From Bacteroidia bacterium (GTDB lineage: Bacteria > Bacteroidota > Bacteroidia > Flavobacteriales > Schleiferiaceae), in assembly GCA_030424545.1 (NCBI GenBank), contig JAUHWL010000019.1, forward strand, positions 1-49,207: a stretch of 49,207 bases of DNA, in the 5' to 3' direction. The translations under genes were made by a program, and so were the position numbers. Shown here piece after piece: positions 27,451 to 42,800 of this stretch (position 1 is its first letter; the number at the start of each line of letters is the position of its first letter). Below the pieces are notes generated by a model, which was not told the origin of the DNA, made no database searches, and saw nothing but the letters and a program-made list of their open reading frames with translations.

Positions 27451-27971
27451 TGAAAAAGAAAGCCAATAAAAAAACAACTACGTTGCTCGTTCTAGCAGTG
27501 GCTGCCATTTGGGGAGTCATTGGGTTGAAATTGTACACGGGAATCACAACTGACAGCGATGAAAACTTTACAATACCTAAACAGCGTGCTGTAAAGTTAA
27601 AAACGACAACATTGCCCCTCGTACTAGATTACAAAGATCCTTTTTTGAACACCGATAAACACTTGCGAACACCAAAAAAAACTGCAAACACGCGCGGACA
27701 CTCGCAGACACCCGTGAACACTCGTGGACACGCGCGGACACGCGCGAACACTCGTGAACACACGGCAATAACATGGCCAAAATTGGTTTATTTAGGTCAG
27801 ATAAAAAATTTAAGCACCCATAAAGTTTCGGCTATGTTGCAATGCAATGGGCAAACAGAAATTTTAGACATCGGCACGCAATGGCAAGAGGTAAAATTAA
27901 TTTCGTGCCAACCGGATAGTGCTCAATTGGAGTTTCAAAATGCAAAAAAATGGATCAGAAAAAATCCTTAA
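27450..27971 (+). CDS. GspC/PilP-like protein with a minisatellite linker
   Basis: A 173-residue protein from a GTG start that overlaps the upstream stop by one base. One membrane segment at about 10-28 (LLVLAVAAIWGVIGLKLYTG), then a linker, then a small beta domain (YLGQIKNLSTHKVSAML, IGTQWQEVKLIS) like the HR domain of GspC or PilP that docks on the secretin. The linker (about 70-108) is encoded by a 10-bp tandem repeat and reads NTRGH, NTRGH, NTREH with a 10-residue period, clearly not a conserved fold. Confidence 0.65.
   Translation: MKKKANKKTTTLLVLAVAAIWGVIGLKLYTGITTDSDENFTIPKQRAVKLKTTTLPLVLDYKDPFLNTDKHLRTPKKTANTRGHSQTPVNTRGHARTRANTREHTAITWPKLVYLGQIKNLSTHKVSAMLQCNGQTEILDIGTQWQEVKLISCQPDSAQLEFQNAKKWIRKNP
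27662..27770 (+). repeat. 10-bp minisatellite inside the GspC-like gene
   Basis: Seven consecutive 10-base units fit CTCGTGGACA with variants (27691-27760), and degenerate units flank them. The unit is not a multiple of three, so gain or loss of one or two units shifts the frame, and only changes of three keep it. A related pair of units occurs at 29801-29820. Confidence 0.9.
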
Positions 27972-29206
27972 AAGCCGGGGCGCTCAACTATGCCATTTTG
28001 TTGTCCATTATTGCGGCAGCCACTATTTTATTATTGTTGGTTTGGCAAGAAAAGCAAGCAGAAATCCACACAAAACACAAGCATCAATTTGATTTGCGAC
28101 AAAACTGTTTTTCAGCATGGAATATGCTAAAAAACTTGCCTATTGCAGGGCAAGAATATGTAAAAATTGAGCGTGATTTGTTTGACGAAGGGTGTGATTC
28201 GATAAACATCATCAATCGTCAATGGGGTGCATTTCAAACGGCTGTTATTCGTGCCCAGCGCATGGGTTTTCATTATAAAACAGCCTTAATTTATGGTGTG
28301 TTACCACACGAAAAATATCAAAATGTGGCACTTTATACTACAGGAAAAAGATACCCACTGCACTTTGCAGGCAAAGTGCGCATCTATGGTGATGTTTACG
28401 CCCCCCAGCCAGGTATTAAGGCGGCCTACATCGAAGGGAAAACATTTCCTTATAAACGCATGGTGCGAGGCCAAATTTATAAACGCGAAAAAAATGAAAT
28501 AAAGCCCGATGTCGCCCTTGAAAATTATGCGAAACGCCTTGCCCAATTTCAATACTTACCCGAAGACAGCTTGGTGTTTGAAATCAACAAAAATATTCGT
28601 CAACCCTGGGAAAAACGCACCATAATCTTTGAGCCTAAACGTAGTTTTTTTGATTTTGACACCTTGCAAGGCAACCTTATTTTAAGCCATCGCGATAGCG
28701 TGGTCATTAACGCCACTTGTGGGCTCAACGATGTGCTGATCAATGCAAAAAAGGTGCGTATTAAGGACGGTTTTTCGGGGCGACTACACATTGTGGCCAC
28801 AGACACGGTTATTCTCGAAGAAAATGTAACATTGGCTTACCCATCATCCATTATTTTAATGAACAAAAACCCTAAAATGCAAACGCAGATTAGGCTAAAA
28901 AAAGGAGTTCAGTTTAGTGGAGTAATAATCAGCGAAGATCGAGAACGATTGTCAAAAACAAGTGCCAAAGTAGTGTTGGATTCGGGATCAGTGGTCATTG
29001 GGCAAGTTATTGCGAACAGTCAGGTAGAACCAAAGGGTAAAATTATGGGGCAACTTTTTGCTGAAAAAATAATTTTGCACACGCGCGCAGGGATTTACGC
29101 CAACCACTTGCTTGATTGCGAAATCAACAAAGACAGTTTAGACATTCCCTTTGCTGGAAGCGGCATTTTGGGAGACGAAAAATACGTGGCGGCATGGTTA
29201 AATTAA
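27950..29206 (+). CDS. GspK/PilX-like or beta-helix protein of the secretion operon
   Basis: A 418-residue protein with an N-terminal membrane segment (about 10-30, GALNYAILLSIIAAATILLLLV) placed as in PilX/GspK-type minor pilins, then a long extracytoplasmic part. From about 215 onward it shows a repetitive hydrophobic pattern (VVINATCGLNDVLINAKKVRI, SGRLHIVATDTVILEE) typical of a beta-helix or polymer-forming fold. It overlaps its neighbours on both sides. A role as the tip of the pseudopilus is possible; this is inference. Confidence 0.6.
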   Translation: MDQKKSLKAGALNYAILLSIIAAATILLLLVWQEKQAEIHTKHKHQFDLRQNCFSAWNMLKNLPIAGQEYVKIERDLFDEGCDSINIINRQWGAFQTAVIRAQRMGFHYKTALIYGVLPHEKYQNVALYTTGKRYPLHFAGKVRIYGDVYAPQPGIKAAYIEGKTFPYKRMVRGQIYKREKNEIKPDVALENYAKRLAQFQYLPEDSLVFEINKNIRQPWEKRTIIFEPKRSFFDFDTLQGNLILSHRDSVVINATCGLNDVLINAKKVRIKDGFSGRLHIVATDTVILEENVTLAYPSSIILMNKNPKMQTQIRLKKGVQFSGVIISEDRERLSKTSAKVVLDSGSVVIGQVIANSQVEPKGKIMGQLFAEKIILHTRAGIYANHLLDCEINKDSLDIPFAGSGILGDEKYVAAWLN

Positions 29207-29505
29207 AGGCGAGTACCTTGGTGGAAGTGCTGGTGGCGATGCTTATAATTTCGGCCGTTACCACGGTCTGGACAACACTATTTTTGCGCATCAATGCACA
29301 TGGGAACTTGCAACAACAAGACTGTGGCAAAGAGCTTTTTCAAGAGGCAAAAAATATAGCTCAACCCACCCTGTTTGAGATTGATTGTAAAGGCGAAACG
29401 TGGAGTGTAAGCGTGACCAAAGAAGGTGAGAATTTGCTTTTTGTGCAAGTAGTGTCGCTAAATTTCAGACCAGAAGTTAAATATCAAGCATTAATTTCCC
29501 CATGA
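29194..29505 (+). CDS. minor pseudopilin (GspI-like)
   Basis: A 103-residue protein with a prepilin signal STLVEVLVAMLIISAVTTV, where Glu is the fifth residue of the mature form. I chose the ATG at 29194, which puts a short basic leader (MVKLKA) before the motif; the longer frame from 29116 lies mostly inside the upstream gene. Two Cys residues may pair in the globular part. The small size fits a minor pseudopilin. Confidence 0.75.
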   Translation: MVKLKASTLVEVLVAMLIISAVTTVWTTLFLRINAHGNLQQQDCGKELFQEAKNIAQPTLFEIDCKGETWSVSVTKEGENLLFVQVVSLNFRPEVKYQALISP

Positions 29506-29996
29506 AAAAGTTGCCCTCATTTACCTTGCAGGAAATCATCGTGGTGATGGTAATTACATCAGTGTTGGTTGGTGTTTTTTACTATGCATTTCGGTTTATG
29601 CAGCGTGATTTACTTTTTTTGACATCAACGGGAAATTACAACAATGAAAAGCAAGTTTTTGAAGCAAAACTTTGGAGTGATTTAGATGGTTATCAATCTG
29701 TTTTAGTGGAAAATAAGCGCATGAAAATTGAAAAAGCGCAGTTAAAAATCACGTACCATGTTTTAGGTGATTCGTTGGTAAAAAGAGAGGAAATAAACAC
29801 ACGCAAAACACCCGCAAACACCACAGCTACTTTTGAAATTTCGGCATCCTTTTTAAAAAGTGAAAGTGAACGCAACATGTGTGTTTTCGCCATCCTAAAT
29901 TCACCGAAAATAAAGGGTGACACGTTGCAAATATGCACACCCAAAAGTACCCAAACGGAGTTAGTAAGGAAAGCTTTCAAAAAAAATCCACACTAA
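29502..29996 (+). CDS. minor pseudopilin (GspJ-like)
   Basis: A 164-residue prepilin (MKKLPSFTLQEIIVVMVITSVLVG) with Glu at position 5 of the mature form. Overlaps both neighbours by a few bases (ATGA-type junction before, TAATG after). Two units of the 10-bp minisatellite encode part of residues 100-106 (NTRKTPANT). Confidence 0.78.
   Translation: MKKLPSFTLQEIIVVMVITSVLVGVFYYAFRFMQRDLLFLTSTGNYNNEKQVFEAKLWSDLDGYQSVLVENKRMKIEKAQLKITYHVLGDSLVKREEINTRKTPANTTATFEISASFLKSESERNMCVFAILNSPKIKGDTLQICTPKSTQTELVRKAFKKNPH
29801..29820 (+). repeat. two minisatellite units inside the GspJ-like gene
   Basis: ACGCAAAACA and CCCGCAAACA match the 10-bp unit seen at 27691-27760. They share the pattern nnCGnnnACA. 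Confidence 0.6.
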
Positions 29997-31120
29997 TGGC
30001 CATCGATTTAAAGAACATAGCACAACAACAAGGATCGCCTAGCAAAACGAGGCAATCAAATGGCTTGCTAGATCGTGAAATCAGGCTTAGTCCAACTTTT
30101 GCGGCCAAAGATAAATTGGCGTTTTATAGAGAGCTCACCTTGATGCTCAACAGCGGTTTGCCGCTCAAAGAAACCATCGAGCTCATCGCTAATGAGCAAG
30201 AAAATAAAATGCGCAAAGAGGTGCTGCAAAAAGTGCTACATAAACTCAATAAAGGCGAAAACTTGGAGAGTTCTTTACAGCAATCAGGCAGTTTTTCAGA
30301 ATATGAATTGGTCACTATTCGCATTGGCGAAGAAACAGGGAAATTGCAAAATGTGACCAAAGATTTGGCGGCATTTTTTGAAAACAAGATGAAACAAAAG
30401 CGCGCATTGATGACCGCATTGAGCTACCCTATCGTCATCTTTATGACCTCGATTGGCGCGGTGGTTTTTATGTTGCTTTTTATGGTGCCCATGTTTGAAG
30501 ATGTTTTTGCGCGCTCTGGCAAAGATTTGCCAGCGATTACCAAAATGGTGGTGGCCATGAGTGGATTTATCTCATCATCTTGGCGTGTTTTTTTACTTCT
30601 TTTTTTAGGCATGGCAGCCCTGTTTTTTTGGCAACGTAACAACCCTGCCATTCAGCGAATAAAGTCAAAAATTTATAGCAGAATGCCCATTTTTGGTAGC
30701 CATTACACTACGGGTGTTTTAATGCAGTGGAATGGCGCCATGGCGCTGCTGTTGCAAAGTGGCGTTAACCTGATGACCGCTCTTGAATTAAGCGGCAAAC
30801 TTGCCAAAGATTATCAGCTTAAAACAGCTCTTAAAATGATAGAAAGAGATATCATCAAAGGAGCAACATTGCACAAGGCCATGCAAGCGCATGGAATATT
30901 TAACAAGCGGCTAGTAACACTTATTAAAGTGGCCGAAGAGGCGCATGCCTTAAATGTGGTTTTTGGTGAACTTTCTACCCAATATCGTGAGGAGATTGAG
31001 CACCGCTCAAAACTTATCGGTAGCTTAATCGAGCCGTTTATTATTCTCTTTTTAGGGCTAGTAGTGGGCTTTATTCTGCTGGCCATGTATTTGCCTATTT
31101 TTCAAATGGGCGTGGGGTGA
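29996..31120 (+). CDS. GspF/PilC-family inner-membrane platform protein
   Basis: A 374-residue protein with two GspF domains (about 40-165 and 245-365) and three membrane segments (near 140-170, 190-210 and 345-370). Signatures include FYRELTLMLNSGLPLKETIE and IRIGEETGKL. The start at 29996 overlaps the previous stop as TAATG. It is the last gene of the operon and should bind the GspE-like ATPase. Confidence 0.92.
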   Translation: MAIDLKNIAQQQGSPSKTRQSNGLLDREIRLSPTFAAKDKLAFYRELTLMLNSGLPLKETIELIANEQENKMRKEVLQKVLHKLNKGENLESSLQQSGSFSEYELVTIRIGEETGKLQNVTKDLAAFFENKMKQKRALMTALSYPIVIFMTSIGAVVFMLLFMVPMFEDVFARSGKDLPAITKMVVAMSGFISSSWRVFLLLFLGMAALFFWQRNNPAIQRIKSKIYSRMPIFGSHYTTGVLMQWNGAMALLLQSGVNLMTALELSGKLAKDYQLKTALKMIERDIIKGATLHKAMQAHGIFNKRLVTLIKVAEEAHALNVVFGELSTQYREEIEHRSKLIGSLIEPFIILFLGLVVGFILLAMYLPIFQMGVG

Positions 31121-31215
31121 GAAACCCAGAACTGTGAATACCCTGAAAAATATCTAATACTTTAACATCAAAACATTATGTAATAAATAATTTATTTTTA
31201 TAAACTAAATAGTTA

Positions 31216-31223
31216 TACATTTG
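31216..31223 (+). promoter_or_regulatory. possible -7 box before the island leader
   Basis: TACATTTG fits TAnnTTTG and lies a few bases before the stem-loop series. No clear -33 box is visible. Confidence 0.35.
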
Positions 31224-31230
31224 CCCTCGA

Positions 31231-31383
31231 TTTAGCAAAGTTCTTTTGCTGAATTATAATGCCAGCTCTAAGTGGCATTACCGAGAATTTTCAAGTTCTC
31301 AAATTGAACAAAAAAATAATAGCATGATAGCGCTATACTACATATAGCTATCAAAGAGAAATACTGACGATTCGTATGTCGTC
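31231..31383 (+). ncRNA. leader with five consecutive stem-loops
   Basis: In order: TTTAGCAAA/TTTGCTGAA (31231-31253, one G-T pair); TAATGCCA/TGGCATTA (31257-31280, perfect 8 bp); GAGAA/TTCTC (31283-31300); TGATAG and CTATA paired with TATAG and CTATCA (31325-31353, 11 bp with a two-base bulge); GACGA/TCGTC (31366-31383). No coding frame crosses it. It ends about 30 bases before the first island gene. It could be a structured 5' leader or a separate small RNA. Confidence 0.55.
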
Positions 31384-31414
31384 TAGTTAAACTATTTAAA
31401 ATTTTTGTTTGATT

Positions 31415-31975
31415 ATGAGAACGTTTAAAATAAAGAATCTCGGAAAGAGAAAAAAAGAAAAATTAATCAGTTATTACGAAAGAATTGGTGGTGAACTATT
31501 TGTCACTTCACTCTTTTCAGATTACATTATCCAAACCTGTCGGAGATGGGGTGGCCATTGGGATGCCGATAAGCAAAAGTGGCGAGTTCCGCCAGAAAGG
31601 CTAAGCAACTTAATAAATCTTTTAGGCGATCAATCATTGCCACTGGTTAGAGTCAGTGCGCCAGAACATGTATTGAGCGGCTTAAACTCTCAATCACATC
31701 ACGTTGGCCTTCATATACTTTCCTTTTGTCCTGATAGAGACCGGGAGATACAAATCTATGCTGATGTCATTGAGGGCTATGCACAGTCTGGCGGTAGCCG
31801 GAAATACCCAAGAATTGAGTGCGAAGATGTTGTTTATGCTTTATGGGTTCCAACAGATTTTGCGGTTAAAAGAAACCTCCAAATAATAAATGGAGAAGAC
31901 TACCAATTAAGTAAAGCCAAAGAACTGCTCGAAGCTCAATTGGTAGAAATAGAAACATTAATTCAAAAACGATAA
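31415..31975 (+). CDS. hypothetical protein, first gene of the island
   Basis: A 186-residue protein of unknown family. I use the ATG at 31415; a TTG two codons earlier is an alternative. The N-terminal part has RRWGGHWDADKQKWRVPPERL, a Trp/Gly-rich motif reminiscent of small DNA- or substrate-recognition domains, followed by an alpha/beta region and a helical C-terminus (KAKELLEAQLVEIETLIQKR). It leads the small paralogous genes with three bases of spacing and is downstream of the stem-loop leader. No function can be given. Confidence 0.6.
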   Translation: MRTFKIKNLGKRKKEKLISYYERIGGELFVTSLFSDYIIQTCRRWGGHWDADKQKWRVPPERLSNLINLLGDQSLPLVRVSAPEHVLSGLNSQSHHVGLHILSFCPDRDREIQIYADVIEGYAQSGGSRKYPRIECEDVVYALWVPTDFAVKRNLQIINGEDYQLSKAKELLEAQLVEIETLIQKR

Positions 31976-31978
31976 AAA

Positions 31979-32338
31979 ATGGAAAAGAATATAAGCATAC
32001 GACTAGAAGTTAATCCTGAAAAATATATAAAATTAAGAGAATCCTTTATTAGTAAATCTGAGATAATTATACGAGAATGTTTACACATGGATGAGGATAA
32101 TCTGGAAGAATATTACAATGAACAATTTACGCTTCATTTTGACGACAAAGGAAAATTTCAGTTCGCCAGCGAAGAGGCTATAACAGGATTTTTTCATATC
32201 GACACAGGTGTGATGAGTGGTTCAAGTGCTATGGATCTCGCAATGGCAGCAGAACTCATCTTATCAGAGCAATTGAATCTACACACATATATAGTAGCAT
32301 CCGCAATAAATGAATCAATAGAAAACCAGTTAAAATAA
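31979..32338 (+). CDS. small acidic protein, paralogue 1 of 3
   Basis: A 119-residue protein (MEKNISIRLEVNPEKYIKLR). It shares with the two following genes the layout VNPxxYIxLRxxF, then an acidic helix, then a short beta part ending GFFHID. The C-terminal half is helical. It is not recognised beyond that. Three tandem copies suggest duplication and divergence, as seen in anti-defence or antitoxin families, but this is speculation. Confidence 0.6.
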   Translation: MEKNISIRLEVNPEKYIKLRESFISKSEIIIRECLHMDEDNLEEYYNEQFTLHFDDKGKFQFASEEAITGFFHIDTGVMSGSSAMDLAMAAELILSEQLNLHTYIVASAINESIENQLK

Positions 32339-32344
32339 AAAACA

Positions 32345-32719
32345 ATGAATACTCTTAAAATTAAAGTTAACGCTAATCCGGGCAATTACATTGATCTTAG
32401 AGCCCAATTCCTCACAATAAAAAATAATGTAAATAATTATTGTCTAAATTTATCTCAACAAGAAATCGAATCATGTCCAGAAGAAGAATGCCTACATTTT
32501 GATATGTTGGTTGGCAAATATCGCTTCTCATCTACAGATTCCTATCAGAAAGGATTTTTTACAGTTCCAATTTATGGCCTAAAATTTCGTACACCTTAAG
32601 CTCTTGCTGAGCGGGCAGAATTATGCTTTCTTGAGCAAATATCTATGACCGAATTTATGATAGAAGTTGCAAAACGAAAGCAAATAGAAAATCTGATGGA
32701 TAACGATAATATTGAGTAA
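32345..32719 (+). pseudogene. small acidic protein, paralogue 2 of 3, interrupted by a stop codon
   Basis: The frame opens MNTLKIKVNANPGNYIDLR and aligns with the copies on both sides up to GFFTVPIYGLKFRTP, where TAA (32597-32599) stops it after 84 residues. The same frame continues after the stop for another 39 codons (ALAERAELCFLEQISMTEF) with the helical composition of the C-terminal half of paralogue 1, ending at TAA 32717-32719. It is best explained as a nonsense mutation; a working truncated product or recoding cannot be excluded. Confidence 0.6.
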
Positions 32720-32738
32720 CACCACAAAAAAGTAAATT

Positions 32739-33110
32739 ATGAGTGAGACTATGCTGTGTATGGATCCCGATCCAGATAAATATGTACTAATGAAAAAGCA
32801 GTTTTTAATTGCTTCTGAGAACATTACAGAATATTGTTCTTTACTTACAAAGGAAGACATAAATTATTTTGATGAGGATGAAATACTTTGTTTCAATTAC
32901 CACGATGGAGTAATTGCTTTCTCCACGAACACCATGCAAAATGGATTCTTCAATGTTTATTGTTTATGGGAAGAAATTGAGACTCCAGAAGAAGTTGTAG
33001 GTTTTGTAAATGCGCTGATCGAAGAGCACCTAGAATTTCTTGACAACTTGATAAAAATGTCTATTGAATTTTTAATAAGAACTGGCACTAAACTTTTCAT
33101 CTCTAGTTAG
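32739..33110 (+). CDS. small acidic protein, paralogue 3 of 3
   Basis: A 123-residue protein (MSETMLCMDPDPDKYVLMKK) with the same layout as the two upstream genes: DPDPDKYV, an acidic helix (LTKEDINYFDEDEIL), GFFNVY, and a helical C-terminal half ending in IRTGTKLFISS. It is followed by a strong terminator, so it closes the first island transcript. The family is unknown. Confidence 0.6.
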   Translation: MSETMLCMDPDPDKYVLMKKQFLIASENITEYCSLLTKEDINYFDEDEILCFNYHDGVIAFSTNTMQNGFFNVYCLWEEIETPEEVVGFVNALIEEHLEFLDNLIKMSIEFLIRTGTKLFISS

Positions 33111-33114
33111 ATAT

Positions 33115-33169
33115 AAGGTGTATCCAGAACCAATTCGGTAAAAAATAAGGTTCCTGGGTACACCTTTTT
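33115..33169 (+). terminator. strong rho-independent terminator
   Basis: AAGGTGTATCCAGAACC pairs with GGTTCCTGGGTACACCTT with one small internal mismatch, followed by TTT. The polymerase-like gene begins just behind it. Confidence 0.85.
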
Positions 33170-33184
33170 ATGTTAAAACTTGAT

Positions 33185-34411
33185 ATGGAGCCTTGTATAT
33201 GGGTTCCAACGGAATTAATCAATTACCTAGATGAAATAAACCAAAGTGAATTAGAACGCATCAGCTCGAACGACCTACAGGCTCAGGAGTTTGTATTCCT
33301 GTACAGTTCTAATATGCTCAAGAGTTATTTTGACTACCAACAAGGAAAGAGTCCTTATATCCACCTGATGAGCAGCACAATTAGAGATTTTGTCGGAAGG
33401 CGATACATTCGGATAAGAGATTTCATGTTAGACCACGCGATTATCCATCAAAACACATCATATCAGGTAGATCATTATCCAATGACATACCGTTTTTCTG
33501 AAAGGTATCTGGAAAGTGATCTTTCACTTTATAAGGCACAAAACAAGACCATTCAAAACAGAATTGTAAACCGGAAGCTGGATTTAATGAAAGCAATAAA
33601 GGGGAATGAAATAGCTGAATACCTTGTTCATGATGTATATCCATATGTTACCATACCGGCTGATGAGGATCTTTTTGAATTAGGGAAAAAACTGGCCATT
33701 GAAGGCGTTCGAACAAACAAAGGCAAATTAATTGCCCTTAAGAAAAACTCAATTGATCATACCAATGAAAGTATAGTAGAAGATTCCATAGACTTATTTA
33801 ATAAACTATGTCATGGAGGTTATATGATTCCAATCATTGGCGGGATAAAGTCTGGCGGTAGAGTATTTGATTCTTTCAGTTTAGCTCCCAGCTGGTGTCG
33901 CTCTCAGGTGAAAATAAATGGTCAAAATCTGGTAGAAATTGACTTTAATACGTTACACCCAAACCTTGCAATAGCGATCTACGGAGGCAAAACTACCTGT
34001 CCTATCACCCATGATGAAGTGGCGAAGTACTTAGGCATTTCACGTTCTGAAGCAAAACGACATAATCTCTCATTTTTCAATTTAGAATTAGGTATTCTCA
34101 AATACTCTCCACTTTATCCATATTATAAAGAGAACCATCCAGAAATTATCAAAGGACTTATTAATGATAAGCTTTCGAGCAACTTCAATAATGTAGTGAG
34201 TTCAAAATTCTTATCTAAAGAAGTTGAATTAATGACCGAAGTAATAAAACGTATAAGGCAAAGAGGCATTAAAGCACTATATGTTTACGATGCATTATAT
34301 ACGACCGAAACTGAATCTGAAGAGGTCAAGGAGATTATGAATACCGTAGCTTCTGGGAAAGGTATCAAAACTGTAGCTAATATTAATTACCAATGTAAAT
34401 ACAGTGTATAA
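33185..34411 (+). CDS. compact protein with family-A-polymerase-like palm motifs
   Basis: A 408-residue protein. Numbered from the ATG at 33185, chosen because the ATG at 33170 abuts the T run of the terminator: GGRVFDSFSLAPSWCR (224-239); motif A-like LVEIDFNTLHPNLAI (Asp253); motif B-like RSEAKRHNLSFFN (Arg287, Lys291); and motif C-like ALYVYDALYTT (Asp369). The order and the two carboxylates match the palm of family A DNA polymerases and phage-type RNA polymerases, in a form known from uncharacterised mobile-element proteins. There is no exonuclease domain; the first 190 residues are of unknown fold. I infer a replication or priming polymerase for the island. It is not a reverse transcriptase, as no YxDD is present. 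Confidence 0.65.
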   Translation: MEPCIWVPTELINYLDEINQSELERISSNDLQAQEFVFLYSSNMLKSYFDYQQGKSPYIHLMSSTIRDFVGRRYIRIRDFMLDHAIIHQNTSYQVDHYPMTYRFSERYLESDLSLYKAQNKTIQNRIVNRKLDLMKAIKGNEIAEYLVHDVYPYVTIPADEDLFELGKKLAIEGVRTNKGKLIALKKNSIDHTNESIVEDSIDLFNKLCHGGYMIPIIGGIKSGGRVFDSFSLAPSWCRSQVKINGQNLVEIDFNTLHPNLAIAIYGGKTTCPITHDEVAKYLGISRSEAKRHNLSFFNLELGILKYSPLYPYYKENHPEIIKGLINDKLSSNFNNVVSSKFLSKEVELMTEVIKRIRQRGIKALYVYDALYTTETESEEVKEIMNTVASGKGIKTVANINYQCKYSV

Positions 34412-34736
34412 TATCAAAAAGTGCACAACATAAAGTATAGTTAAGTAGTAGTGCTAGGTATACCAGAAGAGCAAAGTGAGCCAGAGTAAAGACCCCGCCT
34501 TTAGGTGGGCGGGGTCGTCCTAGGTAAACTAGAATAGTAAATAATAGTACTGGGAGTTAATTAGTCAATCACAATAATAAAGTGCTGGTATTAATCTAGT
34601 CACCAAAGTAAATTACTAGCACCTCGCTAGCCCTTTGAAGAGGGCTGCTCGTTGATTTATTTCTTCTAATTCGAGTCTGCTTCGTAAACTTTTTTTAAAT
34701 AAATCCATATAAGCTATATAACTTAAATTATTAGAA
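34412..34736. repeat. repeat-rich non-coding stretch, possible origin or structured RNA
   Basis: No coding frame. Four degenerate copies of about 20 bp begin GTGCTAGGTA (34451), GTCCTAGGTA (34517), GTACTGGGAG (34547) and GTGCTGGTAT (34582), with a reverse-oriented one, TACTAGCAC, near 34614-34622. A GC-rich hairpin GACCCCGCC/GGCGGGGTC lies between the first two and AGCCCT/AGGGCT behind the last. It directly follows the polymerase-like gene. Confidence 0.55.
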
Positions 34737-34982
34737 ATGATAAAGACAAGAAAACAATTCGAAGAAGAATTCAGAAGAGTATTCACCCCTGAGGAAAGAA
34801 ATTTAATATTAGATGAAGTCAGGAGAAACCCTCAAGATTACAACCTTAAGGGTCTCCGTCAAGCTGGTGGATACCAAGCCATTCTCAATGCTTTTTTTGG
34901 TAACATTCTAATTGATATACAATCAGGTCTAGATAATGTCAAAATTCGTCAGAAAAGTGGTGAATTCGGTATGAATATCTAA
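34737..34982 (+). CDS. small hypothetical protein
   Basis: An 81-residue protein (MIKTRKQFEEEFRRVFTPEE) with a charged helical N-terminal half and RQAGGYQAILNAFFGNILID in the second half. A promoter-like GCTATATAACTTAAAT lies about 20 bases before the ATG. The family is unknown; the size and charge would fit a DNA-binding accessory or replication protein. Confidence 0.5.
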   Translation: MIKTRKQFEEEFRRVFTPEERNLILDEVRRNPQDYNLKGLRQAGGYQAILNAFFGNILIDIQSGLDNVKIRQKSGEFGMNI

Positions 34983-35105
34983 TGAAATTGCCTGTTTCGA
35001 AGCTGATTTTGAGCCATTTTCAATGAGAAAAGGGGTATACTTATAAAAGCTAAAACATAAAGGGAATAGCTAATTCTTACTATATACTTTAAACAATTAC
35101 CAGCA

Positions 35106-35816
35106 ATGAATACCTTCAATTTACAAGATTTAGCTGCCTTACAAGGGTTTTCTATAGCAACAGATAAGATGATTCCATTTTTAAAAAGTGTAAGAAATAG
35201 GATGGAAAATATCTTTCCTGATTATATCCAATGCCAACGATTAAACCTCGAAAAGCATCAATTCACCATTGACCAGATTCTAGATGACCATGAATTGAGT
35301 GTTGGTTTTAATTGGTCATCAACTACAGCATATTTTGGTGCAGAGCTTATTATTTATCCAACATTAACTATTGAAGAATCAATTCTATTAAACAATAACT
35401 GGGCATTTAAACCTGAAAACGGCTACAAACTGTTTTTCAAGTGCATTCCGGTTAACGATTTAATGCATTCTGATTTGGATATGGAGGAATTTCAATTCGA
35501 AAAGTTCATCGCTGAGATCATGACTGAAATAAGAGCAGCTTTCAACCCCTCTCGAATCAAGAATTATAAAATGTTCAATGAGAGTTTAGATATTGACAAT
35601 GACAAAGAGAAACAGATGCTGTTGAAGAATAAAGAAGATTTGGAAAAACTAATAAATGAATTAGAAGAAGATCTTAAAGAAATCTTACAATTCGGGGAAA
35701 TAGAAAATGTAGATATTCAACAGCAATATAAAAGATATCGTATATTAAAAGATTTGATAACTCTCACAAAGAAGCTTTCTATACTTTATAATAGTCTCAC
35801 TAATTCCAATAAGTGA
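35106..35816 (+). CDS. hypothetical island protein with coiled-coil C-terminus
   Basis: A 236-residue protein. Residues 1-160 form an alpha/beta domain (VGFNWSSTTAYFGAELIIYPTL) and about 175-232 are a long charged helix (EDLEKLINELEEDLKEIL). An ATTCTTACTATATA box ends some 20 bases before the ATG and a terminator follows. No function recognised. Confidence 0.6.
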   Translation: MNTFNLQDLAALQGFSIATDKMIPFLKSVRNRMENIFPDYIQCQRLNLEKHQFTIDQILDDHELSVGFNWSSTTAYFGAELIIYPTLTIEESILLNNNWAFKPENGYKLFFKCIPVNDLMHSDLDMEEFQFEKFIAEIMTEIRAAFNPSRIKNYKMFNESLDIDNDKEKQMLLKNKEDLEKLINELEEDLKEILQFGEIENVDIQQQYKRYRILKDLITLTKKLSILYNSLTNSNK

Positions 35817-35837
35817 CATGCTATTTTGCTAGTGAAT

Positions 35838-35862
35838 GGCGGCCTAAAGAGCCGCCTTTTTT
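35838..35862 (+). terminator. rho-independent terminator
   Basis: GGCGGC/GCCGCC stem with a seven-base loop and six T. Confidence 0.85.
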
Positions 35863-35907
35863 ATTTTCCACTATATGTGAAAAATATTTAAACTTTATAT
35901 TCTTTTT

Positions 35908-36042
35908 ACTATATAATACTAGCATGAAAGGATATAGTAAAAACTTGGCGTTTAGAAAATTTACTAAATCAATCTCATGTTAAGATAATTTTATTCATAG
36001 TATTTATTGGAGAAAGGCGATCATAATTGGTCGCCTTTTTTA
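35908..36042 (+). ncRNA. short transcription unit: small RNA or 19-residue peptide
   Basis: A promoter-like ACTATATAAT (35908-35917) is followed within about 100 bases by a terminator, AAAGGCGA/TCGCCTTT plus T run (36013-36042). The only frame is MKGYSKNLAFRKFTKSISC (35924-35983), basic and too close to the box to have a normal leader. Either a small RNA of about 120 bases or a leaderless peptide. Confidence 0.4.
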
Positions 36043-36131
36043 TTTCAAAAATAATTTCAAGAAATATCAACTTTATTTTAAACAAATATTGAATTCTACT
36101 ATATAATAAATAATCAAAAAATAAATTAAAT

Positions 36132-37043
36132 ATGATGACAGTTATTAAAAGCGAGTTTATAAAACTCATGAAAGGCTACCTGAAATACTACATTGGTAGC
36201 GAACTGAACTTGAAAGTTCAGGAAAAAAACAATTCAATAATTGGTAGGTTCACAGTATATGGCCATGTATTTGAAGTTACATTAAAGGAACTTGGTAATC
36301 GCCAGATCGAGTTGACTTCGATGTTTAGGTTCCAACACGGTACACAATCAATTCTTGGAAATCACAGAGGACTATGCTACAAGTATAGATACAAGACCGA
36401 ACAAGGGAATCTCTACTTTGGTATACAAGGCACTCTTTACAGGAGTGATATGAAAATCGTTCTGGATAAGCTATTCGCTGATTTTATAGCAATTGTCCGA
36501 TTCATTAAAACAGGTGTTGAACCAGAGAATAAGTATTCTTATCTAGATTCATGTATAACTGAGAAGGAAGCATGGAGAAAAGTGATGACAATTCAAAGAA
36601 AATATTCTGATGTCATTAACAATATGTACCACTATTTCTCATCAATAAATGAGGAAGAGTTTAAAAAGTACTACCATGGAACTAGATTCTGTTTTGATCA
36701 AGAAGGAGAGTTTATTGGCACTAACATGGTTGTTCCTCCACGAGCATATGAAATAATGAAGAAGGGCATAATGGATACCCCAGATGATATGGTTAATTGC
36801 GTTTTGTCTTTATATGGTGATATTAAAGAAGAGCTAGAGAATGATCTTGAGGACTTCTGTATTGAGAATGATTTAAAGCACCAGTTTAGCGATACTTTCA
36901 GCGATTTGGACTTCGAAGAAGCCCAGGATTTTTGTGAGAGACATGGCGTAGACGAATATCTGAAAGATGAGGAGCCACGGTCTATGAGGTATTTACTATT
37001 GGATACGCTAGTTCAACCAAGCTTACTTTATCCGTATAAATAA
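36132..37043 (+). CDS. hypothetical island protein with FDxxGxFxG...PPxA motif
   Basis: A 303-residue protein of unknown family. The N-terminal 120 residues look like an alpha/beta domain; residues about 185-210 read CFDQEGEFIGTNMVVPPRAY, a motif also found in the protein at 37618-38475. The C-terminal 90 residues are very acidic (LENDLEDFCIENDLK, FSDLDFEEAQDF). An ACTATATAAT box lies about 25 bases upstream of the ATG, and a terminator follows the gene. Confidence 0.6.
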   Translation: MMTVIKSEFIKLMKGYLKYYIGSELNLKVQEKNNSIIGRFTVYGHVFEVTLKELGNRQIELTSMFRFQHGTQSILGNHRGLCYKYRYKTEQGNLYFGIQGTLYRSDMKIVLDKLFADFIAIVRFIKTGVEPENKYSYLDSCITEKEAWRKVMTIQRKYSDVINNMYHYFSSINEEEFKKYYHGTRFCFDQEGEFIGTNMVVPPRAYEIMKKGIMDTPDDMVNCVLSLYGDIKEELENDLEDFCIENDLKHQFSDTFSDLDFEEAQDFCERHGVDEYLKDEEPRSMRYLLLDTLVQPSLLYPYK

Positions 37044-37100
37044 TATTGTTTTGCTAAATCCTGTTTGGTTCCTGATTTAAGTAGGGATTTTTATATTGAG

Positions 37101-37126
37101 AAGGCAGCCGGATGGCTGTCTTTTTT
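37101..37126 (+). terminator. rho-independent terminator
   Basis: GGCAGCC/GGCTGTC with one G-T pair, a four-base loop and six T. It lies inside the longest possible frame of the next gene, which argues for that gene's later start. Confidence 0.8.
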
Positions 37127-37189
37127 CATTTGAAATCAAACTTTCATTCAATAAAAACATATAAAGAGAGAATTATAAAAGAATGCAAT

Positions 37190-37612
37190 ATGAAAACATT
37201 AAGTCAAATGAACATCGAATACTTAACACAACAATTAAATGATCCATTCACTGGACATGATGTGTATTACCACCCTTTGGATTGGATATGGAATCCAATG
37301 GAAATGGTCGAGGGTTACATTAAAGCGAAGTTTAATGAAGATATTTTATCTACATCAATTTCACATGAATATGTCTATAACAGCTTGGAACAGTTAGAAT
37401 ATATCATGCCTTACAATGCCAAGGTGATTACCACTGATCACTATAAAATGCATTGGCGACACATTGATATAGACATCACAATATTGGAGGAAAAGGTAAT
37501 AGTGCTATCAACATTTGAAATTGAAAAATTCAATAGTTCCAAAATTGAGCTTCCTTTCGATATGGATTATTCAGAAGCCATTGAGTACGTGTGTAAATAC
37601 ATTAAAAACTAA
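37190..37612 (+). CDS. hypothetical island protein
   Basis: A 140-residue protein (MKTLSQMNIEYLTQQLNDPF). I chose the ATG at 37190; the earlier ATG at 37112 lies in the terminator hairpin. The protein is acidic with aromatic-rich segments (VYYHPLDWIWNPMEMVEGY) and resembles no family I know. It is followed after five bases by the next gene, so these two are probably co-transcribed. Confidence 0.55.
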   Translation: MKTLSQMNIEYLTQQLNDPFTGHDVYYHPLDWIWNPMEMVEGYIKAKFNEDILSTSISHEYVYNSLEQLEYIMPYNAKVITTDHYKMHWRHIDIDITILEEKVIVLSTFEIEKFNSSKIELPFDMDYSEAIEYVCKYIKN

Positions 37613-37617
37613 TAATC

Positions 37618-38475
37618 ATGAAGTATCAACAAGACAAGCATTACAGCGAGAATGCGACCAAATTCATAAAGGCATTTGATGCTTATTTGGATTACTATTT
37701 CACAAAATTTAATTCTCCGTATAGAAAGAATAGAAATAATCCTAACCAAGTATTGGCTTCAGCAAAGTGGAATGGTCTAGAACTTACAATAACACTCAAT
37801 TCCTTAAGCTACTGTTACAGTTTAACAACAGAAATGTCTCTTCCGAGTTCTAACCTAGGAAAGCAAAAGCTTCAGCATTTAATTGATTCTAATGATTTTA
37901 ACTTTTACAACAAGAATGGATTATTGACTTTTTGTCAAATTGAAGTTTTTGATGATTGTTTTGAATTAGGGTATGACATTGCGCCTGGCTATCAACCTAT
38001 GCACTTCCTTGAGAAATCAATCGCTGCATTTCATGCTTTATGGTCATATTTAAAGTTTGGAACAATTGTATATCAAGCTGAAGCGTTCATTTATAAAAAA
38101 GCATCTTGGGAAGAATTTGAAGTGCCAGAATATAGCGGTGCGTATTGGCCTATACTAATTCCAATCAGTGATTACTTCTTAAAGTTTTCCGAAAGACAAT
38201 ACAATTTACTCGACCCATCAACCTTCTTTGTGTTTGATAAGAATGGAGTGTTCAAAGGCTTAGATATTATTGCTCCACCATCTGCTATTGTTTTAAGTAA
38301 AAAGGACTACACCATTAAATTTTTAAGAGGTCTAAAGCCAATTGTTTATGAGAACTCTTATCATGAGTTTCCGGAGGACGAAATCTGGGACAAAGAATTA
38401 GAATACTTAAGTAATTTAGAAGACCTTGATGTTGAACAGGTGAAGGAATTCTATTCTCATCCTCTACCATATTAG
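37618..38475 (+). CDS. hypothetical island protein, distant relative of 36132-37043
   Basis: A 285-residue protein. Around residues 200-225 it has FVFDKNGVFKGLDIIAPPSA, matching the motif of the protein at 36132-37043 at a similar place in the chain; both also end in an acidic stretch. The N-terminal half has many aromatic residues. The pair probably stems from an old duplication. Function unknown. Confidence 0.6.
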   Translation: MKYQQDKHYSENATKFIKAFDAYLDYYFTKFNSPYRKNRNNPNQVLASAKWNGLELTITLNSLSYCYSLTTEMSLPSSNLGKQKLQHLIDSNDFNFYNKNGLLTFCQIEVFDDCFELGYDIAPGYQPMHFLEKSIAAFHALWSYLKFGTIVYQAEAFIYKKASWEEFEVPEYSGAYWPILIPISDYFLKFSERQYNLLDPSTFFVFDKNGVFKGLDIIAPPSAIVLSKKDYTIKFLRGLKPIVYENSYHEFPEDEIWDKELEYLSNLEDLDVEQVKEFYSHPLPY

Positions 38476-38501
38476 AGTGTACCCCAAATCGTAGTAAAAT
38501 C

Positions 38502-38530
38502 GGCCCTGAGAATCTCTTGTGGGCCTTTTT
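38502..38530 (+). terminator. rho-independent terminator
   Basis: GGCCC/GGGCC stem with a 14-base loop and five T, between the hypothetical gene and the recombinase. Confidence 0.65.
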
Positions 38531-38552
38531 CGTTTCTACTACTTTTGGCTTC

Positions 38553-39188
38553 ATGAATATATTACCTAAAAATAGTAGCGGAAAAAGGGTTTATTACAGT
38601 CGTGTATCAACAGCCGGTCAGAGCGATGAAAGACAATTACAGAATCTTAAGGGATATGATTATATATTAAGAGATAAATGCAGCGGACTTATTTCATTCT
38701 TTGAAAGACCCGGAGGTAAGCAGATTAAAAAGTTGGCAAATAACAACGAACTTAAGGAACTGGTTGTTCATTCTATAGATCGTCTTGGCAGAAACACTAT
38801 TGATGTACTAACTATTTGGAAACAGCTAACCGATCAACACATTACCATTATCTGCAAAAACCCATCACTGCGAAATTTTAATCATAAAGGTGAGCCTGAT
38901 AAAATATCAGAAATGATCCTGACGATTCTCGCCACTATGTCTTCCTATGAAAAATCCCTCATAAAAGAAAGACAAATGGAAGGGATTGCCATTCGTAAAG
39001 CTAAGGGCCTTTATACCGGGCGAGCCATAAACACAAAAGAATCGCCTGAGAAGTTCCTCAACAAACCCAAGAACAAGAAAATCATTGAGAAATTAAGCGC
39101 TGGTTATACGCAAGCAGAGATTTCAAAAATCCTCGGCTGTAGCTACTCTACAATAGCAAAAGTAATCAAGATTTCAATTGAGAAGTAA
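38553..39188 (+). CDS. serine recombinase (resolvase/invertase type)
   Basis: A 211-residue small serine recombinase. The catalytic Ser19 is in YYSRVSTAGQ, and the conserved arginines are in HSIDRLGRNT. The long helix (about 125-150) contains MSSYEKSLIKERQMEGI. The C-terminal HTH is GYTQAEISKILGCSYSTIAKV. I chose the ATG at 38553; the frame from a TTG at 38517 starts in the terminator. It lies with a small HTH protein at the tRNA end of the island, as recombination modules often do. Small resolvases more often resolve or invert than integrate, so its role in integration is not certain. Confidence 0.92.
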   Translation: MNILPKNSSGKRVYYSRVSTAGQSDERQLQNLKGYDYILRDKCSGLISFFERPGGKQIKKLANNNELKELVVHSIDRLGRNTIDVLTIWKQLTDQHITIICKNPSLRNFNHKGEPDKISEMILTILATMSSYEKSLIKERQMEGIAIRKAKGLYTGRAINTKESPEKFLNKPKNKKIIEKLSAGYTQAEISKILGCSYSTIAKVIKISIEK

Positions 39189-39257
39189 CGGATTTTATTT
39201 TTCTGGGTATTTAAACTTTTTCGGTAAAAAGGTATATAAATTCAAATTGAAGTTATT

Positions 39258-39524
39258 ATGAATGAATTTGAAAAAGTGAGGGAAATTATAAAATCTCTGG
39301 AGTCTTCGGCATCTTATACACGTGACTTAAAGTTGCTAATTGAAGAATTAAAGGAATTAATGTCGCATTATCACTCCAAACCGCTTAGCACAAAAGAAGT
39401 GAGTTTAAAATATCAAATTTCCACAAGAACAATCTCAAGATGGGTTGCTTCGGGGAGATTGAAACCTATAAGTAATCATGGAAAATACTTATTTAATGAA
39501 GAGGATATACGAAACATATTTTAA
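39258..39524 (+). CDS. small HTH protein, excisionase-like
   Basis: An 88-residue protein with an N-terminal coiled region (EIIKSLESSASYTRDLKLLIEELKEL as a helix) and a MerR/excisionase-type winged HTH (LSTKEVSLKYQISTRTISRW and a wing KPISNHGKYLF). Beside the recombinase, an excisionase or recombination directionality factor is likely. Confidence 0.7.
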   Translation: MNEFEKVREIIKSLESSASYTRDLKLLIEELKELMSHYHSKPLSTKEVSLKYQISTRTISRWVASGRLKPISNHGKYLFNEEDIRNIF

Positions 39525-39552
39525 TAGGTTGTTGTATTTTCGAGGTATTATA

Positions 39553-39627
39553 ATGGAAGAAAAAAAAGTCGGTATTAAAAATGATTCAGGTCAAAATTCA
39601 GGTCACCTAAAAACAAAAGCTTCGTAA
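39553..39627 (+). CDS. possible 24-residue peptide near the island end
   Basis: The frame MEEKKVGIKNDSGQNSGHLK ends with KASTAA-type codons inside the terminator stem. It contains two direct copies of ATTCAGGTCA (39584-39593 and 39596-39605). The frame may be accidental and the repeats may be a protein-binding site at the element end. Confidence 0.2.
   Translation: MEEKKVGIKNDSGQNSGHLKTKAS
39584..39605. repeat. tandem 10-bp direct repeat ATTCAGGTCA
   Basis: Two exact copies, 12 bases apart, between the HTH gene and the tRNA. A possible binding site for the HTH protein or part of the attachment site. Confidence 0.6.
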
Positions 39628-39648
39628 ACACTAGGCTTACGAAGCTTT
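39616..39648 (-). terminator. tRNA terminator, bidirectional hairpin
   Basis: AAAGCTTCGTAA and TTACGAAGCTTT form a perfect 12-bp stem with a nine-base loop, just beyond the 3' end of the tRNA. Confidence 0.8.
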
Positions 39649-39652
39649 ATTG

Positions 39653-39724
39653 TTGCCCCACAAGGACTCGAACCTTGACTGACGGTACCAAAAACCGCTG
39701 TCCTGCCAATTAGACGATAGGGCA
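39653..39724 (-). tRNA. tRNA-Gln (anticodon TTG)
   Basis: On the minus strand the acceptor arms TGCCCTA and TGGGGCA pair with one G-T pair, the T arm has GGTTCGAGTCC, and the anticodon loop TTTTGGT gives anticodon TTG. It is 72 bases long without an encoded CCA. Its 3' end faces the island, the usual geometry for an integration target. Confidence 0.93.
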
Positions 39725-39880
39725 TCTATTTATTTTCGGGGCGCAAATATAAGCACTCTGTTTATCCCCGCAAATACTTTTTTTTATTCCGTTCACACAT
39801 TTTTAGAAACGTTTAACGATTATGCCCTATGCTGGTATCTATTTATTTCTAAATTCGCCAACTACCAAATTTATGGAAGA

Positions 39881-42800
39881 ATGATAGAGAACTTTAAGAA
39901 AATCAATAACATAGCCGGATGGGCCGTTTTTGCCATTGCCGCTTTTGTATACACCTACACCGTAGAACCTACCGTAAGTTTTTGGGATTGCGGTGAATAC
40001 ATTGCAACTTCTGTAAAATTACAGGTAGGTCACCCGCCCGGAGCACCATTTTTTCAGATGGTTGGGAACTTGTTTTCGCAACTTGCCTTTGGCGATGTAG
40101 AAATGCAGGCTTACTGGGTAAATATGGTGTCTGTTCTTTCTAGCGCATTTACCATTTTATTTTTATTCTGGACCATTACCGCATTGGCTAAAAAATTAGC
40201 TGAAAAAACAGGTGAATTAGACCAAGGTAAATTAATTGCCATTTTTGGTGCAGGTGCTGTTGGTGCATTGGCATACACTTTTTCAGATTCTTTCTGGTTT
40301 AGTGCCGTAGAAGGCGAGGTTTACGCCATGTCTTCTTTCTTTACTGCTGCAGCTTATTGGGCTGTGCTTAAGTGGGAAGAAGTTGTAGATACCGATAAAT
40401 ATGCCAACCGTTGGTTAATTTTAATCGCGTTTATGGTTGGGCTATCTGTAGGTGTTCACATTTTGGTGTTCCTTACTATACCTGCAATAAGCATGGTTTA
40501 TTACTTTAAAAAATACCCTAATCCAACAACCAAAGGTTTCATCTTGGCCAACATTATTAGCATTGGCGTTTTGGGTTTTGTGTTTAAAGTAATTATCCCC
40601 TTAATCTTAAAAATGCTGGGCAAAATGGAAATTTTGTTCGTAAACAGCATCGGCTTGCCCTTTAACTCGGGCACTATATTTACATTATTGCTTTTAACAG
40701 GTTTAGCTGTATATGGGCTGATGTATACCAAAAAGAAAAATTTACCGCTTTGGAATCAATCTATTTTGGCCGTTATGTTCTTAATGATTGGGTACTCAAG
40801 TTTTGTGATGTTGGCCATTCGTTCTAACGCCAATACGCCAATTGATGAAAACAACCCCGAAGATGCATTGAGCTTGTTAGATTACTACAACCGTGTGCAG
40901 TATGGAGATTGGCCTATTTTATATGGAAGATCTTACAACGCTCAATATGATAGAGACGAGCCTTTTAAAGATGGAGACCCAACTTATGTAAAAGGTTTTG
41001 CTGTGGTTGATGGCAACAGAGAAGTGGCCGGTTTTAGAGATGAAAAGAAAGCCGAAGAATACGTTGCAAACAGTGGTAAAGATTTAACCATAGATGCCAA
41101 ATATATTGTGGCCAACGAGAATCTTGCATCGGTACCAAACTATGATGATAAGTATAAGAGCTTTTTTCCACGTATCTGGAATGACGATCCGCAATACACC
41201 AAAAACTACATAGAAATTGCAGGTATTAAAGACAAGAATAAAAGACCAACTTTTAGTCAGAATTTAAAATTCTTCTTTAACTACCAACTGGGCTATATGT
41301 ACATGCGCTACTTTATGTGGAACTTTTCGGGTAGGCAAAGCGATGAGCAAGGTAGATATGAGTTGACCAAAGGAAACTGGATTACGGGTATTCCATTCTT
41401 AGATGAAATGCGTTTAGGGCCACAAAAGAACTTGCCTAAATTTATCTCGGAAAATAAAGGCCACAACAAATACTACATGTTGCCGCTTATTTTAGGGTTA
41501 ATTGGCTTGGTTTATCACTTTAAAAAAGATAATAAAGATGCATGGACCGTTCTCTTATTCTTTGTGTTTACGGGAATTGCCATTGTACTCTACACCAATC
41601 ACAAACCTTTTGAACCACGCGAAAGAGATTATGCCTTCGTAGGTTCGTTCTATGTATTTGCCATATGGATTGGCTTAGGTGTAGTTGCGCTTTATGAATT
41701 GTTGCAGAGTAAGTTTAAAAAACCCTCTTCTGCCGCATTAATCACATTGCTTTGCTTGGGCCTTGTACCGGGCATAATGGCCAAAGAAAATTGGGACGAC
41801 CATGATCGTAGCAACCGTTATGTGGCTAGAGAAATTGCCAAGGCCTATCTTGATAGTTGTGCCCCAAATGCCATTTTATTTACCAACGGGGATAACGACA
41901 CATTCCCCCTTTGGTACATACAAGAGGTAGAAGGCTATCGTACAGATGTGCGCGTAGTGAACCTTTCGTTATTAAATACAGATTGGTACATAGACCAAAT
42001 GAAACGCCAAACGTATGATGGCGCACCGGTACCGTTTGATTTTGATTGGAACCAATACAAACAAGGAACTAGAGATGTTATTTATTACCAAGATATTGGT
42101 GTTAAAGGCCGCTGGATGGTAGACGACTTTGTAAAATGGTTGAAAAGAGATGACGATAAAGTGAAATTTAACGCCATGCGCTCTAAAGAACTTATGTTCT
42201 ACCCCATTAAAAAAGTACGTGTACCTGTAAATAAAGCAGAAGTAATTGCTAAAAATGTAGTACCGCCTCAAGATGAAGATAAAATTGTAGACTACATAGA
42301 TTGGGATTTAAACTCTGGCGTATTGCTTAAAAGAGATATGTTGGTAGTAGATCTAATTGCCAAAAACAATTGGGACAGACCCATTTACTTTAGCATTACG
42401 GTAGGTAACAACAGCAAGAGCTTTTTCTGGTTAGATCAGTACTTCCAATTAGAAGGATTGGCTTACCGATTTACACCCGTAAAACGCACCAAGAAAAGTC
42501 AAGGAATGGATTTTGGCGAGGTTAACCAAGCTGTGATGTATGACAATTTGATGAACAAATTCAACTTTGGAAACATGGAGCTTGAAGATGTTTATTTAGA
42601 TGAAACTGCACGCAGACTTACTTACAACTTGCGTACTATTTATGGCCGTTTGGCAAACTCACTAATAGAAAGTGGTGAAAAAGAAAAAGCCATTGAAGTA
42701 CTTGACCGTTTGATGGAAAAAGTTCCTGTAGAAAAATATGGTTTCGACTATTTTATTATGAATGCTATAGAAGCCTACTACAAAGCGGGCGATAGTGAAA

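Follow-up and report, generated by a model that had tools for sequence, protein, structure and literature searches.

Gene content of the island

The window analysed here is the 49,207-nucleotide contig JAUHWL010000019.1 (assembly GCA_030424545.1) of a Bacteroidia bacterium of the family Schleiferiaceae. It contains an island of 12 open reading frames (ORFs), all on the plus strand, which extends from the end of the GspF gene (31120) to the 3' end of a tRNA-Gln gene (39652) and encodes a predicted minimal family A polymerase resembling those of TV-Pol elements, a small serine recombinase and a helix-turn-helix (HTH) protein. The GC content of the island is 0.337 (31121-39616), compared with 0.435 in the secretion-like operon on its left (21039-31120) and 0.389 in the TMEM260-like gene on its right flank (39881-43042). 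The features on which the interpretation depends are:

33115-33169, plus strand: long hairpin and U-run immediately before the polymerase start codon, attenuator- or terminator-like
33170-34411, plus strand: TV-Pol-like minimal family A polymerase, 413 amino acids (aa), with catalytic Asp258 and Asp374 and with Lys296 in the fingers
34412-34736: non-coding, with a GC-rich hairpin at 34491-34516 and one imperfect direct pair of 28 nt
38517-39188, plus strand: small serine recombinase, Sin/Bin3-like, likely start ATG at 38553 (211 aa), Resolvase domain complete
39258-39524, plus strand: HTH_17 protein of 88 aa, excisionase- or regulator-like (Pfam, 2e-9)
39616-39648: terminator-like hairpin beside tRNA-Gln
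39652-39724, minus strand: tRNA-Gln(TTG), intact, 3' end towards the island

The recombinase matched the Pfam Resolvase family (3e-22) and the PHROG 'DNA invertase' (1.5e-39), its nearest solved structure is Tn552 Bin3 (6.7e-17), and matches to CcrB, IS607 and the master invertase Mpi (5e-13) fell below the NCBIfam cut-offs. The nine ORFs besides the polymerase, recombinase and HTH_17 genes had no Pfam match below E 0.046 and were counted as family-less; one of them, o3, is interrupted. No helicase or relaxase family was detected among the 12 ORFs with Pfam, and searches with Pfam (all 12 ORFs) and with PHROGs, PADLOC and NCBIfam (10 of the 12 each) revealed no gene for a capsid, packaging, a relaxase or defence. 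The weak matches that did appear, mostly through HTH parts, were to PADLOC mad1 in the recombinase (9e-4), to a virion protein in o8 (0.17) and to a terminase small subunit in the HTH_17 protein (0.04); PHROG matches to packaging- or capsid-type families, two of three of them in the HTH_17 protein, all had E values of at least 0.04 (10 of the 12 ORFs).

An earlier, sequence-only reading of this DNA had described an AT-rich island between GspF and tRNA-Gln with a polymerase-like gene, a serine recombinase and about nine genes of no known family, and with no capsid, conjugation or known defence gene, and this description, coordinates included, is borne out by the analysis. Its excisionase-like protein indeed contains an HTH_17 domain, but matches the NCBIfam excisionase model only below the cut-off. 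The non-coding stretch that it called repeat-rich contains the hairpin and a single 28-nt pair, which matches at 22 of 28 positions (equalled in 0 of 200 shuffles), but no multi-copy motif beyond chance; an iteron array was rejected because 44 of 60 shuffles scored as well. This stretch is a possible origin region.

The polymerase

TV-Pols, the minimal core of superfamily A polymerases in transposons and viruses, are often encoded near gamma-delta resolvases or lambda-type integrases (PMC2579912). Conserved motifs and the structural model both identify the product of the window gene as a genuine family A-type polymerase. The AlphaFold2 model (pLDDT 81, pTM 0.78) retrieved DNA polymerase I as the top Foldseek match in the PDB (E 5e-6), and VIA-align matched it to family A DNA polymerases and mitochondrial RNA polymerase, chiefly over residues 137-410, with Z up to 14.7 (a match that spans 243 and 251 residues). 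Among the viral models of BFVD, there was a weak match to the replication protein of Zamilon virus (E 6e-4). Given that the top fold matches are to family A, the protein is not the primer-independent family B polymerase by which pipolins are defined. Pipolins also use tRNA sites. TV-Pols have no nuclease domain, and the N-terminal domain of their recombinase-linked subset is all-helical (PMC2579912). In the window protein, residues 1-136 are mainly helical in the model, with some low-confidence stretches, and no nuclease family was found in the polymerase by sequence (Pfam, NCBIfam).

Asp258, Asp374, Lys296, Arg231 and Arg244 are invariant in all 14 rows of an alignment of the window protein with 13 relatives, from which L082 was excluded, its gene being split over two frames. 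The two aspartates agree with the metal-binding pair in the RRM-like palm of TV-Pols. Arg231 and Arg244 both precede motif A, where TV-Pols have a conserved arginine in a beta-hairpin; either may be this template arginine. The fingers motif of the window protein, R292-S-E-A-K296, lies in a helix in the model (292-302); the relatives retain the lysine but not the arginine. Taken together, these features fit assignment to the TV-Pol family, in a comparison made by fold, motifs and description rather than by published alignment.

The PHROG search produced one clear match, to phrog_4756 (2e-11), a family of unassigned function. Among the 88 genomes of the bacterial family, the polymerase was found in one, that of the window, where both the polymerase and the recombinase are single-copy; its occurrence is thus sporadic. 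A search of 395 genomes of the phylum with the 14-row profile identified two full-length proteins, that of the window genome and that of G188 (34% identity across 403 residues), and three short or weak matches (G216, G115 and G693). The window polymerase forms a very long branch, so that its placement among the relatives is unsure. Single-sequence searches of phages, plasmids and IMG/VR detected no relatives of the polymerase, and a search of IMG/VR with a two-row alignment detected one viral contig, L084. Of five matches to phrog_4756 in 296 genomes, three were set aside: L006, which appears glycosidase-like by eye, and L004 and L005, which align poorly although they have polymerase-like motifs.

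Relatives at other tRNA genes

A genome scan identified 13 polymerase loci, labelled as Flavobacterium (10), Flavobacteriaceae (1), Bacteroidetes (1) and Rhizobium (1), to which IMG/VR adds L084; G188 carries the same locus as L078, from Flavobacterium omnivorum. In many of these relatives, small serine, large serine or tyrosine recombinases are encoded around the polymerase. The polymerase has a tRNA gene within 6 kb in 9 of 14 loci, counting the window, as against 2 of 40 control stretches, each 12 kb long and taken from four Flavobacterium genomes (Fisher p 1.7e-5; L075, a 3-kb contig, was omitted). Without the window, the count is 8 of 13 (p 5.3e-5, or 1.7e-4 if L072 and L078 are also counted once). 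The 3' end of the tRNA points towards the polymerase in eight of the nine loci (p 0.02), and a recombinase gene lies between the two in seven, the exceptions being L071, where the nearest tRNA faces away, and L082. No tRNA was found within the examined stretch of L079, L080, L083 or L084, and that of L081 is 9 kb away.

The relatives are located near other tRNA genes than the window element, namely Leu, Met, Asn and Glu. At L076, an exact 19-bp copy of the tRNA-Met end bounds a segment of 6.7 kb and lies beyond the tyrosine integrase. Recombinases of the window type (30-32% identity) occur at L072, L076, L162 and L163, and each of these loci also encodes an integrase of the tyrosine or large serine type. 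The gene set that the sequence-only reading proposed to seek in other genomes and at other tRNA genes recurs in part: the polymerase and recombinase are found together near these tRNAs, but the nine family-less ORFs are not.

The polymerases of L073 and L076 are 92% identical, and the two loci have only one 2.2-kb block in common (90.7% DNA identity, plus strand, E 1e-10), comprising about 0.6 kb of non-coding sequence and the polymerase gene, although L073 is near tRNA-Leu with a large serine integrase and L076 near tRNA-Met with a tyrosine integrase. The conservation of the block despite the different integrases and tRNAs suggests, from sequence comparison, that leader (see below) and polymerase are exchanged as a unit and might constitute a self-contained replication module.

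Several further observations were made at these loci. The Rhizobium-labelled contig L073 is possibly mis-binned rather than an instance of inter-phylum transfer, given that its polymerase is 92% identical to that of a Flavobacteriaceae contig. At three loci, a large serine recombinase ORF on the minus strand runs into the 3' part of the tRNA gene and stops there (L073, 6296-6384; L074, 5386-5466; L077, 5821-5895), such that its last codons overlap the presumed attachment site. L071 contains an exact 49-nt direct repeat (16957-17005 and 17628-17676) that includes the last bases of tRNA-Arg and the following sequence; its copies, about 0.7 kb apart, could delimit a separate small insertion or a remnant.

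A conserved leader RNA upstream of the polymerase

Upstream of the polymerase start, 12 of the 14 relatives, all except L081 and L084, have a conserved leader. Its predicted fold comprises two nested helices and a third hairpin, which is variable, and the 8-nt loop between the helices is complementary to one or two purine copies further downstream. Examples, including two leaders that precede genes other than TV-Pol, are:

L073, 9722-9829; L077, 9523-9628; L071, 9724-9844: leader (15 further loci)
L157, 1501-1600: leader without TV-Pol, 40.7 bits, before a BT4734-like gene
L158, 1501-1587, minus strand: leader without TV-Pol, 51.5 bits, before an HTH_36-like gene

RNAalifold predicted both nested helices from ten rows; in 3 of the 12 pairs, both partners differ in one row or more, and the covariation term is near zero (0.03). 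A covariance model built from the 12 leader rows gave nine matches in 8 of 179 Flavobacterium genomes. Three of them fall at training loci, where TV-Pol is present, and four at new loci that have TV-Pol directly downstream. The remaining two, the lowest-scoring, precede the BT4734-like gene (PF08800, 1e-4, just above the cut-off), which is presumably primase-like, and the HTH_36-like gene (0.005, below the cut-off), as if the replication gene were swapped behind the leader. At three of the four polymerase loci found only through the leader, L161-L163, a tRNA and recombinases are present; the fourth, L164, had neither a tRNA nor a match to the recombinase probes.

With G-U pairs allowed, all 8 nt of the loop pair with a site whose end lies approximately 4-15 nt ahead of the start codon in 14 of 18 leaders; in three others the pairing covers 6-7 nt, and in L078 it covers 3 nt. 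Pairing with the copy just after the helix extends over 7-8 nt in 10 of the 18 leaders and over 5-6 nt, near the mean for swapped partners (5.0), in the other eight. When partners were permuted among the seven loop types, 8 of 5040 permutations did as well as or better than the true pairing for the start-proximal site, and 31 of 5040 did so for the other copy. These figures serve as a guide only, as 9 of the 18 leaders have the same type of loop and related rows lack independence. No Rfam match at E 1 or better was found for the L077 leader, and none at the gathering level for those of L073, L074, L077 and L079; in viral contigs, the leader pattern had no match. Within the open-access literature, searched by titles and abstract openings and with most subscription journals outside it, we found nothing on tRNA-targeted flavobacterial TV-Pol elements or on the leader.

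We are slightly inclined to regard the leader as an undescribed class of pseudoknotted switch that would control translation of the following replication gene in integrated flavobacterial polymerase elements, with the pyrimidine-rich loop alternating between the downstream purine copy and the copy at the ribosome-binding position. In the relatives, such a leader would gate translation of the replication gene and hence set the timing or amount of element copying. The two alternative partners of the loop make the control of these elements directly testable. The window lacks the leader (best model score 12.5 bits, E 0.41, over 31000-39900 with filters off), and its polymerase may use another device, the long hairpin directly before the start codon. 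The region 33105-33180 folds with -25.9 kcal/mol (z -4.9, with 0 of 200 shuffles as good), and the hairpin may be an attenuator, a terminator or a translation control element.

State of the window copy

The edges of the island comprise, apart from the terminator-like hairpin, the following:

31121-31408: non-coding left edge adjoining GspF, with nothing recognisable
39584-39605: ATTCAGGTCA in two direct copies with starts 12 nt apart, candidate binding sites

No further copy of the tRNA-Gln end was detected anywhere in the 49-kb window; accordingly, neither boundary of the island is marked by one. Repeats joining the island ends were no better than in shuffled sequences (58 of 200 shuffles as good for direct, 17 of 200 for inverted repeats), and no tyrosine or large serine integrase, or remnant of one, was found in the island. 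By analogy with L076, the integrase and the distal attachment (att) repeat might be expected in the left edge, at 31121-31408; this segment contains no tRNA-end repeat, no repeat of the right end beyond shuffles and no match at E 0.05 to proteins of the relatives' loci.

The tRNA-Gln and TMEM260-like genes are adjacent in 27 of 30 loci, that of the window included. GspF upstream of the tRNA-Gln locus had no match in 18 stretches, 13 of them with the tRNA, and with the probes used, no recombinase was found at those 13. The sequence that follows tRNA-Gln varies across the 13 relatives, with some genes common to a few. For L076, none of the matches listed from 249 genomes spanned the joined query for an empty site. 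At gene level, one of four loci compared, L100, keeps the left gene and tRNA-Met and, 1.8 kb past the tRNA, a single right-flank gene, with no element; at the other three, no right-flank gene was found within the examined stretch.

Origin of the island

We favour, with moderate confidence, the explanation that the island is a stranded, decayed integrative element of the TV-Pol class inserted at the 3' side of the tRNA gene. The lack of a tRNA-end repeat and of an integrase, the interruption of o3, and the integrases found beside the same type of recombinase in the relatives all favour a stranded element. An ancestral circle would have integrated into the 3' end of tRNA-Gln by means of a dedicated tyrosine or large serine integrase, as the relatives seem to do. 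Once excised, the circle would be primed and/or copied by the TV-Pol together with the host helicase and replisome, on which the element would depend since none was recognised in the island. The small serine recombinase would serve either to resolve multimers or to help with excision, which the HTH protein would regulate or direct. The tRNA-distal end, with the integrase and the second att repeat, would then have been lost in this genome. With this end gone and one gene interrupted, the island is probably fixed now, although the polymerase and small recombinase ORFs are open. The earlier designation as integrative suits a mobile-element island at a tRNA but is doubtful for the present copy, and self-replicating was an extrapolation from the polymerase.

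Several points weigh against a stranded element. The left end has no defined boundary, so that the loss of the integrase is argued from absence. No empty tRNA-Gln site was shown for the window insertion, because the genus is represented by a single genome in the set and the left flank is not conserved. In the tRNA test, the control stretches are slightly shorter than the scored 6 kb plus gene plus 6 kb and some relatives' flanks are shorter, and the window was itself noticed in part through its adjacent tRNA. Small serine recombinases are capable of acting on their own, and the reading frames of the polymerase, the recombinase and the HTH protein are each open; at L159, a recombinase of the window type (29% identity) occurs with no integrase detected by the probes used. 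None of the nine family-less ORFs was found in the relatives' polymerase loci, so only the polymerase and the recombinase connect the window to its relatives.

The open recombinase and HTH genes, adjoining the tRNA 3' end, and L159 would also fit an intact TV-Pol element that still moves, driven by its small serine recombinase alone, in which the HTH protein serves as excisionase and the crossover repeat is too short to see. The below-cut-off matches to CcrB and IS607 indicate kinship with serine recombinases that move DNA, and gamma-delta-type resolvases are frequent in the TV-Pol elements described in 2008 (PMC2579912). We nevertheless consider this alternative rather unlikely: the best matches of the recombinase are resolvases and invertases of the Sin/Bin3/Mpi type, four relatives have the same type alongside a separate integrase, and the end-to-end repeats do not exceed those of shuffles. 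Still less probable is a patchwork at a variable site, in which a TV-Pol fragment, a resolvase and unrelated cargo arrived separately. The differing content after tRNA-Gln among the 13 relatives would be consistent with it, as would the failure to find the nine ORFs at the relatives' polymerase loci and the confinement of the nine ORFs to the window genome in a joint search of 395 genomes of the order (394 of them others), a query of reduced sensitivity in which few candidates per genome were scored. Against this, all island genes have the same orientation and low GC, and the polymerase, recombinase and tRNA occur together in the relatives. The matches to Mpi and to the PHROG 'DNA invertase' might point instead to a regulatory, Mpi-like invertase locus, with the recombinase inverting nearby DNA and the polymerase present only incidentally. 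That seems very improbable, given the co-occurrence of window-type recombinases with TV-Pol in the relatives; moreover, the nine inverted pairs in 28000-42500 are imperfect (78-89%; chance level not assessed), and none closely brackets the recombinase.

Comparison with known elements

Elements with TV-Pols and resolvases or integrases were described in 2008 by Iyer, Abhiman and Aravind (PMC2579912), and hence the island is a divergent member of an already described class and not, as the sequence-only reading proposed, a new type; nor was any satellite feature (packaging, capsid or capsid-hijacking gene) found in it. A relaxase, which would mark an integrative mobilizable or conjugative element, was not found among the 12 ORFs either. 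As in those described in 2008, the window has a minimal family A polymerase, a resolvase near the polymerase and, as in the non-viral members, no capsid; its polymerase may resemble theirs also in the mostly helical N-terminal part of the model and in that no nuclease domain was recognised by sequence. Flanking direct repeats or a second copy indicating transposition were reported for one Brucella example of TV-Pol, not for all (PMC2579912). For the window element, neither a flanking direct repeat nor a second copy was found, and it differs also in its nine family-less cargo ORFs. The word tRNA does not occur in the main text of PMC2579912.

The SCCmec pattern-2 module CCPol-MP-Cch2 (PMC7581432, PMC10061031) likewise combines a family A polymerase of a mobile element with nearby serine recombinases, and both SCCmec and the window element are located at the 3' end of a gene. 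In contrast to that module, the window recombinase is a small rather than a large serine recombinase, no helicase was recognised and there is no resistance cargo; an OB-fold partner (MP/SSB) was not identified in the window by sequence search. The authors of the 2020 SCCmec paper state that, to their knowledge, no other TV-Pol had been biochemically characterised (PMC7581432). Pipolins (PMC7385651) are likewise integrated with their own polymerase, but theirs belongs to family B and that of the window to family A. The window thus adds a divergent member to the scarcely studied elements with minimal family A polymerases.

Family-less ORFs and the neighbourhood of the island

The nine family-less ORFs, each on the plus strand, are:

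31409-31975: o1, 188 aa from TTG (ATG at 31415)
31979-32338: o2, 119 aa, paralogue of o3
32345-32718: o3, interrupted paralogue of o2 and o4; 84 aa, in-frame stop, 39-aa continuation
32739-33110: o4, 123 aa, paralogue of o3; weak match to phrog_24510 (0.007)
34737-34982: o6, 81 aa
35106-35816: o7, 236 aa
36132-37043: o8, 303 aa, paralogue of o10
37112-37612: o9, 166 aa
37618-38475: o10, 285 aa, paralogue of o8

The 39-residue continuation of o3 resembles the C-terminal end of o2, which none of 500 shuffles matched as well, but not that of o4, which 144 of 500 did. A domain common to o2/o3/o4 and o8/o10 was considered and dropped (3.7% probability in profile comparison), and a structure of o8 modelled with o10 was discarded (pLDDT 46). 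The joint query with the nine ORFs had no match in phages, and o8 had none in IMG/VR; among 196 genomes of the order, o8 was found in its own genome, together with its paralogue, and as one weak match elsewhere (E 9e-5).

To the left of the island, window positions 21039-31120 hold an operon that resembles those for type II secretion or pili, in which GspF was identified by Pfam and GspE- and GspD-like proteins by eye. A GspF relative is present in 11 of 56 genomes of the family, among them the window's own. Further upstream, at 5-20113, there are many ORFs with similar 'MTMPGR..YRYGFNGKE.D' starts followed by unrelated C-termini, which we take to resemble a store of Rhs-type tips. Two ORFs (4392-6504 and 10458-11495) appear tyrosine recombinase-like by eye.

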